Shown in pieces: positions 10,257 through 34,006 of a DNA stretch of 64,000 nucleotides. The DNA lies in contig NZ_FNQT01000002.1 in NCBI RefSeq assembly GCF_900107665.1, forward strand, positions 126,286-190,285. The letters are read 5' to 3'. The position numbers and the translations under genes were made by a program. The notes under the pieces were generated by a model that saw only the letters and a list, made by a program, of their open reading frames with translations, made no database searches and had not been told where the DNA came from. This DNA is from Haloplanus vescus (GTDB lineage: Archaea > Halobacteriota > Halobacteria > Halobacteriales > Haloferacaceae). The stretch's first letter is position 1. The number at the start of each line of letters is the position of its first letter.

Positions 10257-10330
10257 GGGCCGGTAGCTCAGTCAGGTAGAGCGACGGACTCTTAATCCGT
10301 CGGTCGGGGGTTCAACTCCCTCCCGGCCCG
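10257..10330 (+). tRNA. tRNA-Lys (anticodon CTT)
   Basis: A 74-nt cloverleaf: acceptor GGGCCGG with CCGGCCC, D-stem GCTC/GAGC, anticodon stem ACGGA/TCCGT with loop CTCTTAA (anticodon CTT), T-stem GGGGG/CCCTC (one G-U pair) with loop TTCAACT, discriminator G. No intron and no encoded CCA. The last 22 bases recur exactly 113 bp downstream. Confidence 0.97.
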
Positions 10331-10334
10331 TAAG

Positions 10335-10361
10335 AAATCCGCGAGCGACAGCGAGCGGTTT
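10335..10361 (+). repeat. Hairpin 1 directly after tRNA-Lys
   Basis: AAAtCCGC pairs with GCGGTTT (one bulged T) around a GAGCG-rich loop, starting 5 nt after the tRNA. A stronger hairpin occupies the same place after the initiator tRNA-Met. Confidence 0.5.
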
Positions 10362-10373
10362 CGAACGACCCGT

Positions 10374-10443
10374 GGTGGGCGTTGAACGAGAGAACGCCGA
10401 GTGGTAACGAGGCGTTCGCGTGGTTCAACTCCCTCCCGGCCCG
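10374..10443 (+). repeat. Hairpin 2 carrying an exact copy of the tRNA-Lys 3' end
   Basis: The 22 bp at 10422-10443 are identical to the last 22 bases of tRNA-Lys (10309-10330), ending at the discriminator base. An inverted partner at 10374-10387 (containing GTTGAAC) matches the copy at 12 of 14 positions (10423-10436). A second nested stem AACGCC/GGCGTT (10393-10398 and 10411-10416) lies inside. Direct duplication of a tRNA 3' end is what tyrosine-recombinase integration leaves (attL/attR), but only about 90 bp separate the copies and no integrase is present. Confidence 0.75.
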
Positions 10444-13133: not shown

Positions 13134-13781
13134 ATGACTGACGACGACATTCCAGACGACGCGGTATCGCTCGACGAAACTGACCACGAGATATCGGTGA
13201 CGACGCGCCGTAACGTCGCCAAGGTCCTCGGCGTGATGGGCGGAGCCGCCGCCATCGGGGCCTTCTCCGTCAACTTCATCACCGGACTGGCCGACGCCGG
13301 CCTCGCGAGCGGTGAGGCCGACCTCACCTACGAGAACATCTACGTCGAGGGCACGCACCTCGTCGACCAAGACGGTGAGCGCATCTCCGCCGACCAGATA
13401 GAACAGGGCAGCGGCGACACCATCACCGCTCTCCCGGAGAAAGAGGGCGGTGGCGCTCTCGAAAACAAGAAGGCGACGACGCTACTCGCACGCTTCGGCC
13501 CCGACGACTTCGAGGAGCCGACCGAACTCGATTGGACGGCCGACGGCTACGTCGCCTACTCCATGGTCTGCACCCACGAGGAGTGTCTGGTGTCGGGCCG
13601 CGACGGAGACGACCTCTTCTGCCCGTGTCACGGCACCTCGTACGACCCGCTGCGCGGCGCCGAGGTAGTCGGTGGTCCCGCCCCCGACCCGCTCCCGCAG
13701 CTTCCCATCGGCGTCAGTGACGAGGGCAATCTCCTGCTCGCGACCGGTCCCTTCGAGGGCCCAATCGGAGCCTCGCACTAA
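13134..13781 (+). CDS. Rieske 2Fe-2S protein of the cytochrome bc complex
   Basis: 215 residues. An N-terminal TTRRNVAKVLG twin-arginine-type sequence precedes one membrane anchor (about 28-50). The Rieske fold has cluster ligands C146/H148 in CTHEEC and C163/H166 in CPCHGTSY, with C151 and C165 as the disulfide pair. The first box is CxHxxC rather than the usual CxHLGC. It oxidises quinol at the Qo site of the next gene's product and passes electrons to a blue copper protein such as the halocyanin at 16028. One base separates it from cytochrome b. Confidence 0.95.
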   Translation: MTDDDIPDDAVSLDETDHEISVTTRRNVAKVLGVMGGAAAIGAFSVNFITGLADAGLASGEADLTYENIYVEGTHLVDQDGERISADQIEQGSGDTITALPEKEGGGALENKKATTLLARFGPDDFEEPTELDWTADGYVAYSMVCTHEECLVSGRDGDDLFCPCHGTSYDPLRGAEVVGGPAPDPLPQLPIGVSDEGNLLLATGPFEGPIGASH

Positions 13782-13782
13782 C

Positions 13783-15156
13783 ATGACCGACGAACTCTCT
13801 GACGACACGACGGACGTCGAGACGCGCCCCGACGGCGGCGTCGAGCGATACGAGCACAGTCGGCTCTATCGCTGGCTTGACGACCGACTCGACCTCGACG
13901 ACGACTCGTTCGGGAAGGCGTTCCCCGACGACCGATACGGCTCGTTCCTGCTCGGCGAGGTGGCGCTGTTCTCCTTCGTCATCCTCGCGGCCACGGGGAC
14001 GTTCCTCGGACTGATGTACACGCCCCACGCCTCCGAAGTCGTCTATCAGGGGCAGGTTGCCCAGTACGCCGGCGAGTCGGTCCCCGGCGCGTTCGCGAGC
14101 GTCCTGCGCATTTCCTACGACGTTCGCTTCGGGATGTTCATTCGGATGGCCCACCACTGGGCGGCGTACCTCTTCCTCGCCGCCATCGGCCTGCACATGT
14201 TCCGCGTCTTCTTCACCGGCTCGTACCGCAACCCGCGCGAGCCGAACTGGGTCGTCGGAAGCGTCCTCCTCTTGCTGGCGCTCGGCGAGGGGTACTTCGG
14301 CTACGCGCTCCCCTACGACGACTTCAGTGAGACGGCAACGACCATCGGATTCCAGATGACGTCTTCGATTCCGGTCGTCGGGACGACGCTGAAGAACCTC
14401 ATCTTCGGCGGGAACTTCCCCGCGGACGCGACGTACATCCTGCCGAGATTCTTCTTCTATCACGTCTTCCTGCTCCCGGCGATCATGGCGGGCCTCATCG
14501 GCCTGCACATGTTCATCCTGCTCCGCCAGAAGCACACGGAGCACGCGGAGAGTTCGCGTGACGCGGACTCGCCCGTCGGCCCCGACCCCGACGACGAGAG
14601 CGTCGTCGTCGGCGTGCCGATGTGGCCGAATCAGGCGGCGATGTCCGTCGTCATCTTCCTCTTCACCGCCTCCATCGTGTCGTTCCTCGCGGCACTCTTC
14701 CCGGTGCAACGGGTCGCCATCATCGGCCCCGCGTCGCCGCTCACCCAACCGTCGGGCGTCCGCCCCGACTGGTTCTTCATGTGGGTGTTCGGCGCGCTGA
14801 ACATGACGCCGAATATCTTCGCCGGCTACGGGCGATTCATCGGCGGCGTGCTCTTCCCCGGCATCGTCACCGGCGTGATGGCGATGTGGGCGTTCATCGA
14901 CCGCCACGACGAGCCGGTTCACTTCACCGCGAACCCGCTCGACCGGCCGATGCCCACCGCCGTCGGCGTCGCTGCCATCTCGATGATTATCGTCCTCTCC
15001 ATCGCCGGCATGAACACGTTCATCGCCGAGACGCTGGGGGTGAGCGGAGGCGCCATCTACCCCTACCTGCTCGCGATGACGATTCTCGTCCCGCCGTTGC
15101 AGGGACTCATCGTCTACGTCGCGCTCAAGCGACGGCAGTCGCGCTTGGAGGACTGA
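13783..15156 (+). CDS. Cytochrome b, single-chain (b6 plus subunit IV regions)
   Basis: 457 residues. Eight TM helices in one polypeptide covering both the b6-like and the subunit-IV-like parts. Heme ligands: H124 and H138 (13 residues between) and H227 and H242 (14 between); the latter spacing is that of cytochrome b6 rather than mitochondrial cytochrome b. The Qo-site PEWY motif is PDWFF (in VRPDWFFMWVFGALNM). It forms the quinol-oxidising core with the Rieske protein in the cytoplasmic membrane. The ATG immediately after the Rieske stop is favoured over longer upstream frames. Confidence 0.95.
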   Translation: MTDELSDDTTDVETRPDGGVERYEHSRLYRWLDDRLDLDDDSFGKAFPDDRYGSFLLGEVALFSFVILAATGTFLGLMYTPHASEVVYQGQVAQYAGESVPGAFASVLRISYDVRFGMFIRMAHHWAAYLFLAAIGLHMFRVFFTGSYRNPREPNWVVGSVLLLLALGEGYFGYALPYDDFSETATTIGFQMTSSIPVVGTTLKNLIFGGNFPADATYILPRFFFYHVFLLPAIMAGLIGLHMFILLRQKHTEHAESSRDADSPVGPDPDDESVVVGVPMWPNQAAMSVVIFLFTASIVSFLAALFPVQRVAIIGPASPLTQPSGVRPDWFFMWVFGALNMTPNIFAGYGRFIGGVLFPGIVTGVMAMWAFIDRHDEPVHFTANPLDRPMPTAVGVAAISMIIVLSIAGMNTFIAETLGVSGGAIYPYLLAMTILVPPLQGLIVYVALKRRQSRLED

Positions 15157-29726: not shown

Positions 29727-29771
29727 CTGGATTTCAAAACCCTTAACGCCGTCTCGCGAATAGAACCCAGT

Positions 29772-29846
29772 AGCGGGATGGGATAGCCAGGAGATTCCGC
29801 CGGGCTCATAACCCGGAGATCGGTAGTTCAAATCTACCTCCCGCTA
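29772..29846 (+). tRNA. Initiator tRNA-Met (anticodon CAT)
   Basis: A 75-nt cloverleaf: acceptor AGCGGGA/TCCCGCT (A1-U72), anticodon loop CTCATAA in a stem with three G-C pairs (CGGG/CCCG), T-arm GGTAG-TTCAAAT-CTACC, discriminator A. The A1-U72 pair and G-C run identify the archaeal initiator. No intron and no CCA. The last 21 bases recur exactly 136 bp downstream. Confidence 0.97.
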
Positions 29847-29847
29847 T

Positions 29848-29904
29848 TTTCGAGCGGACATCGTGAACGAGGAGCGGAGCGACGAGTGAACCGTCCGCTC
29901 GAAA
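29848..29904 (+). repeat. Hairpin 1 directly after initiator tRNA-Met
   Basis: TTTCGAGCGGAC (29848-29859) and GTCCGCTCGAAA (29893-29904) are perfect 12-bp arms, starting 2 nt after the tRNA. It has the same position as the weaker hairpin after tRNA-Lys. Confidence 0.7.
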
Positions 29905-29911
29905 CGGCCCA

Positions 29912-29982
29912 GTAGATTTGAAGCAGGGAGTGACGTGAGCGAAGCGAGCGGAACGACCGTGGTTCAAATCTACCTCCCGCTA
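29912..29982 (+). repeat. Hairpin 2 carrying an exact copy of the initiator tRNA 3' end
   Basis: The 21 bp at 29962-29982 equal the last 21 bases of the tRNA (29826-29846), ending at the discriminator. Inverted partner GTAGATTTGAA (29912-29922) pairs perfectly over 11 bp with TTCAAATCTAC (29963-29973). The loop contains the GAGCGAAGCGAGCGG-type motif. Same architecture as the tRNA-Lys locus. Confidence 0.8.
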
Positions 29983-31119: not shown

Positions 31120-31165
31120 AGAAACTTGTGGCCGATCAGTCGCTATGGATGCTTCGTCTCGCCGA

Positions 31166-32093
31166 TTACGGAACCACGCGCGTCCCCGTCTCGTCGGCCA
31201 GCGCGGCGGGTAGGTTCTCCGGCGTGGTGATGACCGCTCGCTCCCCCCCCCCGGCCTCGACGAATCGGAGGCATGCCTCGACTTTCGGGCGCATCGTCCC
31301 CGCGGCGAACTCGTCGGCGTCGAGGTGCGCGCGGAGGTCCGACGCGGCGATTTCGCCCAGTGCCCGTTGCTCCGGGTCGCCGTAGTTCACGTACGCGTGT
31401 TCGATGTCGGTCAACACGACGAGCGTGTCGGCACCGAGCGCCGTCGCCAGCGACGCGCTCGTTAGGTCCTTGTCGACCACGGCCTCGACGCCACGGAGGC
31501 CGTCGTCGCGGACGACTGGGACGCCACCCCCCACCCCCGCATATCACCGGCCCGCCGCGTTCGAGAAGGCGGGCGATTTCCTCCGCCTCGACGACTTCGA
31601 CCGGGTCCGGGGAGGGGACGACGCGACGGTACGGGCGCTTCCCGTCGGAGACGCGGGCCGTCTCGAACGGCTTCGTCTCGGCCTCCGTCTCGGTGTAGAA
31701 CGGGCCGACGGGTTTCGTCGGGTCGTCGAAGGCAGGGTCGTCGGCGTCGACTACCACCTGCGTCACGAGCGTCATCGCCATCGCTCCTCCCTGGCTGTCG
31801 AGCGCCTGCTGCAGCAGATAGCCGATTTGGGCCTGCGTCTCCGCGACCAACACGTCGAGCGGGTGTTGTGGCGTCTCGCTCGCCGCCGCCTGCTGGACGA
31901 GCAGGTTCCCCACCTGCGGGCCGTTGCCGTGCGTGAGCACGAGTCCGTCCGTCGCTACCGCGTCGGTGAGTGTCGCCACCGACGCTTCGACCGCCTCGCG
32001 CTGTTCGGCCGCCGTCCACGGCCCGTGCTCGCCGAGTAGCGTGTTTCCGCCGAGTGCGACGACCACTGGTGCGTTCGTGCCCGGAGTCGCCAT
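31166..32093 (-). pseudogene. arcC: Carbamate kinase with a one-base frameshift
   Basis: The N-terminal part (VVALGGNTLLGEHG..., LTHGNGPQVGNLL, ALDSQGGAMAMTLVTQVVV...) reads in one frame until a C-run on the plus strand (CCACCCCCCACCCCC, 31525-31538). The C-terminal part (GGGVPVVRDDGLRGVEAVVDKDLTSA..., NYGDPEQRALGEI..., GTMRPKVEACLRFVEAGGGERAVIT) continues in the other. Deleting one base in the six-C run restores ICGGGGGVPVV, the expected ATP-site loop. Together the parts cover a full carbamate kinase (about 309 residues). All catalytic segments are intact, so a sequencing error at the homopolymer or a very recent mutation is likely. Confidence 0.85.
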
Positions 32094-33841: not shown

Positions 33842-33850
33842 AAAGTTGGA

Positions 33851-33924
33851 TGGGCCAACGCGGATTTGAACCGCGGACCTCCCGGTTATCAGCCGAGCGC
33901 TCAACCTAACTGAGCTATTGGCCC
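33851..33924 (-). tRNA. tRNA-Ile (anticodon GAT)
   Basis: A 74-nt cloverleaf: acceptor GGGCCAA/TTGGCCC, D-stem GCTC/GAGC, anticodon loop CTGATAA (GAT), T-arm CGCGG-TTCAAAT-CCGCG, discriminator A. No intron, no CCA. TTAAAC about 35-40 bp upstream is a plausible TATA element. Confidence 0.97.
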
Positions 33925-34006
33925 AAGTGAGCGCATCAATTGCTTGCGCCGTCGTTTGTTTAAGAGTTTCTTTTCGTTTCCCGTCGGTCGACCAACAGGC
34001 GGGGAG

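Follow-up and report, generated by a model that had tools for sequence, protein, structure and literature searches.

The rtT repeats (RF00391) are tandem units that follow the E. coli tyrT gene for tRNA-Tyr, each carrying the 3'-terminal ~19 bp of the tRNA. In integrons, a cassette array grows from one end, and the attC site is a folded strand whose conserved outer arms begin with G^TT and which also has mismatches, a bulged base and a terminal stem that varies. In archaea, the 3' ends of tRNA genes are the classical attachment sites of integrative elements, such as those of the SNJ2, pNOB8 and SSV types (PMC8371274). For Haloquadratum, PMC3119063 gives a catalogue of small palindromic elements, including MITEs and PATEs, and reports a provirus marked by a 22-nt duplication of a tRNA.

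The units described here, found downstream of haloarchaeal tRNA genes, share features with each of these systems. Like rtT repeats, they lie in tandem downstream of a tRNA gene and repeat its 3' end. The rtT repeats, however, are associated with a single tRNA in enterobacteria and have a unit of ~178 bp, whereas the haloarchaeal units occur at almost all tRNA kinds, and we know of no inverted T-arm hairpin in rtT. With archaeal integrative elements (PMC8371274), they have in common that the tRNA 3' end is duplicated, the tRNA restored and the copy displaced downstream; the direct repeat with its displaced copy is evident here as a 21-nt copy with sharp ends, at sites that exist in occupied and empty form. 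Unlike those elements, the units are ~90-150 bp long, non-coding, structured and arrayed, and were not seen as the ends of viruses or plasmids; no integrase or element genes lie between the repeats of the units. MITEs and PATEs (PMC3119063) are likewise short, non-coding, palindrome-containing, dispersed and variable in presence, and the units too are too short to code and are present at some sites and absent at others. The units differ in that they lack the terminal inverted repeats of known transposons, occur at tRNA 3' ends only, and carry a 21-nt duplication that varies with the host tRNA.

The initiator tRNA-Met locus

The window, i.e. the whole 64,000-nt stretch of the Haloplanus vescus genome analysed here, contains an initiator tRNA-Met gene followed by a unit of 136 bp, with the following features:

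29772..29846, + strand: initiator tRNA-Met (CAT) (Rfam RF00005, 60.5 bits); its positions 53-73 are the segment repeated
29847..29982, + strand: unit (insert) of 136 bp that includes the 21-nt distal copy; delimited by repeats, fold, and presence or absence of a 136-bp unit at the corresponding site in a further genus of the family
29848..29904, + strand: hairpin 1, perfect 12 bp, arms 29848-29859 and 29893-29904
29911..29923, + strand: inverted T-arm copy AGTAGATTTGAAG, the 5' arm of hairpin 2
29924..29961, + strand: loop module CAGGGAG...CGACCGTG, with tandem G.A pairs, common to other tRNAs
29962..29982, + strand: direct copy of tRNA-Met positions 53-73, providing the 3' arm of hairpin 2 plus the 3' acceptor strand

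The 3' end of the tRNA (GTTCAAATCTACCTCCCGCTA) has an exact match at 29962-29982, with a start-to-start spacing of 136, and a perfect 11-bp inverted partner of this copy (GTAGATTTGAA) lies at 29912-29922, both as read in the initial annotation. Comparison of the last 24 nt of the tRNA with its own downstream 300 nt gave a self-match score of 21, against a maximum of 16 in cross-tRNA controls and at most 8.5 for upstream self-matches, so that the copy is far beyond chance. A hairpin at 29848-29904 had been placed 2 nt after the tRNA; its 12 bp are indeed perfect, but its start is better given as 1-2 nt past the tRNA, whose limits are 29771-29847 according to ARAGORN. The copy does act as the arm of a hairpin, as proposed, and hairpin 2 exceeds the 11-bp arm then noted, its pairing reaching nearly to the apex GCGAAGC by way of tandem G.A pairs. 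Folded as single-stranded DNA, the 136-nt unit has a z-score of -4.6 for the tRNA strand and -2.6 for the opposite strand, and folding of the sense strand as RNA gives z = -5.2 relative to shuffles.

Rfam at gathering threshold detects three tRNAs in the window and no other family, RF00391 included. The second is also followed by a unit, of another loop family:

10257..10330, + strand: tRNA-Lys (CTT), the second host tRNA of the window
10331..10443, + strand: tRNA-Lys unit, with its inverted arm at ~10375-10387 and a 22-nt copy at 10422-10443

The self-match survey detected no unit downstream of the third, a tRNA-Ile (33847-33925, - strand). Elsewhere in the window, a carbamate-kinase-like protein is apparently split over two frames (31143-32093 and 31166-31534, both - strand) near 31530, at a G/C homopolymer, possibly as a pseudogene or through a sequencing error.

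Distribution across the genome and the haloarchaeal order

All 42 RF00005 matches of the genome were surveyed, each tRNA being compared with its own flanks. A repeat of the tRNA's own 21-nt 3' end, with at most 2 mismatches and within 400 bp, was found for 11 of the 42 tRNAs but in only 1 of 5074 wrong-tRNA controls, and about 17 of the 42 have scores within the highest 1.3% of control values. Host tRNAs are those for Lys, Gly (three), Val, Ser, Glu, His, Arg and Asp as well as both initiator Met, and nothing comparable to the 3'-end copies was seen upstream of the tRNAs of this genome. The initial claim of one architecture at two unrelated tRNAs was right but understated: between a quarter and a third of this genome's tRNAs have the unit architecture, and it recurs across the whole order (see below). 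Enrichment over controls, the test to which that claim had been tied, was indeed found.

A second class of unit was also noticed in this genome, for example after Ala-ggc (L005), Arg-ccg (L007) and Arg-gcg (L044) and as a second copy after Gly-tcc (L004). Here the copy starts in the 3' strand of the T-stem, the inverted arm corresponds to the acceptor strand, and an apex of the GCGTCAGC type is on the opposite strand.

Across the haloarchaeal order, units of ~90-150 bp occur singly or in arrays (one to three) behind almost all kinds of tRNA. Of 99 genomes of the order, 43 contain a diagnostic pattern, GATTYGAANCAGGGAGYG, and none contains its reversed control. A same-strand tRNA lies 35-182 bp upstream at 29 of 30 pattern loci, the exception (L070) being located after an upstream copy of a tRNA-Met end. 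None of the 204 genomes of the phylum from outside the haloarchaeal order contains the pattern. In the named collection, haloarchaeal matches sit behind tRNAs (in Halobellus, Natrialba, Haloferax, Halorubrum, Natrinema, Halonotius, Haloarcula and others), and bacterial matches are unrelated sites. As far as searched, the family is thus limited to haloarchaea. A second pattern, designed on the copy boundary, is present in 59 of 96 genomes, with 28 of 30 loci at most 400 bp from a tRNA. At the initiator tRNA-Met, serial exact copies are present in many genomes with a spacing of mostly 103-149 bp, and at least one unit was found at 14 of 30 tRNA-Met loci that had not been selected for carrying units.

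Some tRNA-Met loci are themselves duplicated. Entire tRNA-Met genes with their promoters occur in tandem duplicate in two genomes (L273 in G151, L274 in G161), at L273 with a unit behind each copy. In two others, two initiator-like tRNA-Met genes lie ~24-26 kb apart (L298/L299 in G101, L300/L301 in G150); the second has an altered anticodon arm (CCGGCCTCATGAGCCGG), and related units are found in both arrays.

Anatomy of the units and sharing of loop modules

The common organisation was measured on 142 distinct units. The tRNA is followed by hairpin 1 with its locus-specific arms, typically 7-12 nt, then by the inverted T-arm, the loop module (median 37 nt) and the copy of positions 53-73. Hairpin 1 is general in the family (mean score 7.6, against 5.0 for shuffles). 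In most units the copy is limited by G53 on the left and discriminator base 73 on the right, and identity beyond these limits is near chance except in Met units with a common GTAG and in a few recent tandem duplications. CGTG or CGTA precedes the copy in 75 of the 142 units. All are confined to the tRNA-sense strand and the downstream side, and no genes or gene cassettes were found within these units of about 90-150 bp. One tRNA-Met (L326 in G064) is followed by hairpin 1 alone, with neither inverted arm nor copy, and this half-unit is probably the product of a partial deletion.

The arms follow the host tRNA. At T-stem positions 62-65, the inverted arm has on average 2.58 of 4 matches to its own tRNA and 1.26 to other tRNAs (142 units). 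Extra complementarity of the acceptor part is weak (3.05 vs 2.67), and a full direct-inverted-direct copy including the acceptor is therefore not relied on. The loop modules, in contrast, are shared across tRNAs and species. The Gly-tcc module of this genome has as its nearest relative the Arg-cct module of Halonotius roseus, and that of its elongator Met is closest to a Val-gac module from another family. A Gln module of one genus and a Met module of another are identical at 37 of 38 positions, with both sets of arms fitting their hosts. Nearest neighbours come from the same tRNA with moderate enrichment (32% vs 18%). Homology of loop modules across tRNAs and genera implies that something is exchanged between tRNA loci. 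The statement that the Met unit was not copied from the tRNA-Lys locus accordingly stands for the arms (with the own-tRNA preference just given), and the loop families of the two units also differ (CAGGGAG... for Met, GAGAGAAC... for Lys); it does not extend to the two units being independent inventions, given this homology of loop modules.

Folding of the tRNA strand

The fold of the loop modules is an interrupted helix that contains tandem G.A pairs of the sheared type, 5'-GA/5'-GA being present 174 times and 5'-AG/5'-AG 5 times. Rewarding G.A pairs raises the fold score of the modules by 9.3, compared with 5.1 in shuffles, and rewarding C.T, the opposite-strand equivalent, raises it by 0.4. 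Similarly, GA faces GA atop hairpin 1 in 22 of 90 cases (6.8 expected from shuffles) and TC faces TC in 1. The terminal stem of the short CAGGGAG class shows compensatory change, with 11 double-changed cells against 3.1 in shuffles. A kink-turn RNA was rejected by inspection, the tandem G.A pairs lacking an adjacent 3-nt bulge.

The ratio of G.T to A.C mismatches is 14:14 in hairpin 1, 55:79 in T-arm pairs outside position 53, and 49:31 in loop modules. The lack of a clear G.T excess in hairpin 1 and in the T-arm pairs favours constraint at the DNA level, on a folded strand, a cruciform or through arm-to-arm correction, over constraint on an RNA. Stable-hairpin apices of the form GC-GNA-GC are enriched in tRNA flanks (58/237 vs 57/1008). 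The idea that such hairpins are generic to haloarchaeal DNA was discarded: the GAGCGNAGCGA-type motif is almost limited to tRNA flanks within the window, where perfect short palindromes are moderately above shuffles and no more.

Gain, loss and array order

In a genus from the family of H. vescus, G004 (L309) carries a unit at the tRNA-Met locus, where G052 and G158 have none. Removal of the 136-bp unit from L309 in silico yields CTACTTCTGGACGGACGCCACAC and so regenerates the empty site, which reads CTACTTCTGGACGAACGCCACAC in L320; L324 is similar. In a second set, with matching flanks, a unit is present in G119 (L323) and absent from G044 and G110 (L319, L322). Presence and absence could also be explained if the 21-bp repeats recombined with each other and units were lost in this way.

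Arrays are polarised. Among 34 arrays with a spacing of 90-149, assembled under strict criteria for membership, the best-preserved copy is the one nearest the tRNA in 20 and the farthest in 1, with 13 ties (p = 2e-5). A freshest copy next to the tRNA is as expected for entry of new units at the tRNA with displacement of older ones, although conversion by the tRNA, if dependent on distance, would leave a similar pattern. In G080 and G146, a variant base of the tRNA is also found in its copies, and copies and tRNA thus evolve together.

Origin of the units

We propose that the unit is a non-autonomous mini-element and that a recombinase provided in trans inserts it at tRNA 3' ends. This is the simplest account of the patchiness, the clean occupied and empty sites, the sharp ends, the polarity and the sharing of modules, and we give it a probability of about one half. 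The recombinase, most likely a tyrosine integrase, would recognise the hairpin of inverted T-arm and T-arm copy in extruded or single-stranded form. Insertion may take place at or near G53, with the element making the tRNA 3' end whole again and pushing the former end downstream. Recombination between the displaced copy and the tRNA in polyploid cells could then fit copy and arms to the new host and resize arrays, and correction between the hairpin arms may add to the fitting of the arms. Acceptor sequence of the new host in the copy goes beyond a plain integrase reaction, and either conversion of the direct copy, which is plausible in polyploid haloarchaea, or an origin by template switching has to be assumed. 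The genome of H. vescus has six tyrosine recombinase genes; no integrase-carrying element with unit ends was found in phage or plasmid records or in viral contigs. The sole viral-contig match (L344, IMGVR_UViG_3300000875_000004, 13744-14000) is the flank of a host tRNA-Glu: this haloarchaeal tailed-provirus contig ends in the host tRNA, a complete unit and then a decayed unit.

Alternatively, the unit may be a functional RNA tail, co-transcribed with the tRNA and serving, for example, in 3'-end processing, termination or as a regulatory structure, with the inverted T-arm shared between the tRNA and its copy. Such a tail would fit the restriction to the sense strand and downstream side, the sense-strand fold far better than shuffles, the tandem sheared G.A pairs with compensatory changes and the slight G.T excess in loop modules. 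We nevertheless consider it unlikely, since presence is patchy at the same tRNA among sister species, G.U pairs are not clearly enriched in hairpin 1 or the T-arm pairs, the only Rfam matches in the window are tRNAs, and modules hop between tRNAs.

No dedicated enzyme would be involved if the units had arisen by DNA template switching, i.e. replication-linked snap-back together with jumps by microhomology from one tRNA locus to another at GGTTCRAATCC, the universal T-arm sequence. The direct-inverted-direct order, arms that track the host tRNA, and a distal copy with host acceptor sequence followed by the original flank all agree with such a process, as do the enriched GC-GNA-GC apices and the duplication of leader sequence as well in some arrays. 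The uniform limits at G53 and base 73, the conserved loop families and the CGTR before the copy, however, exceed the regularity of random events, and the complementarity of the acceptor part is weak, as noted above; this origin seems rather improbable to us.

Units and integron attC sites resemble each other in design: the units have folded arms with a G^TT start, a G bulge, mismatches of the G.A kind and a terminal stem that varies, and their arrays, like those of integron cassettes, probably grow from one end. The units differ from integrons in the absence of gene cassettes and in being anchored in tRNA genes. No protein from 39 genomes of the order scored over the cut-off for the integron integrase IntI (TIGR02249), similarity being that of generic tyrosine recombinases. 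With no integrase over cut-off and no genes in the units, membership among integrons was rejected. An integron-like system without genes, with a dedicated recombinase, small cassettes, attC-like folded sites and a crossover core in the T-arm (G53 TTC), is a doubtful prospect: if it were true, tRNA genes would be the anchors of polarised cassette arrays throughout the order.

Least probable are scars of ordinary virus or plasmid integration, with the 21-bp copies as attL and attR and the interval as the remnant of a deleted element: the preference of archaeal attachment sites for tRNA 3' ends (PMC8371274), the duplication at the Haloquadratum provirus (PMC3119063) and the six tyrosine recombinase genes speak for them, but the narrow size range, an internal hairpin conserved in every context and the absence of the structure from provirus and plasmid ends among phages, plasmids and viral contigs speak against, and independent deletions would not all yield one structure.

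Implications

A search of the open-access literature found no description of tRNA-end units, whose structure is not covered in the available portions of PMC8371274 and PMC3119063, and a repeat family that accompanies at least a quarter of this genome's tRNA genes and extends across the order appears to be previously undescribed. If mobile, the unit would be a minimal element parasitising tRNA ends, and its arrays would offer a natural record of insertion order and a route to an archaeal recombinase that recognises folded strands. As an RNA feature, it would give many archaeal pre-tRNAs a structured tail. Under either reading, duplications of tRNA ends in haloarchaea should not automatically be taken as scars of viruses.
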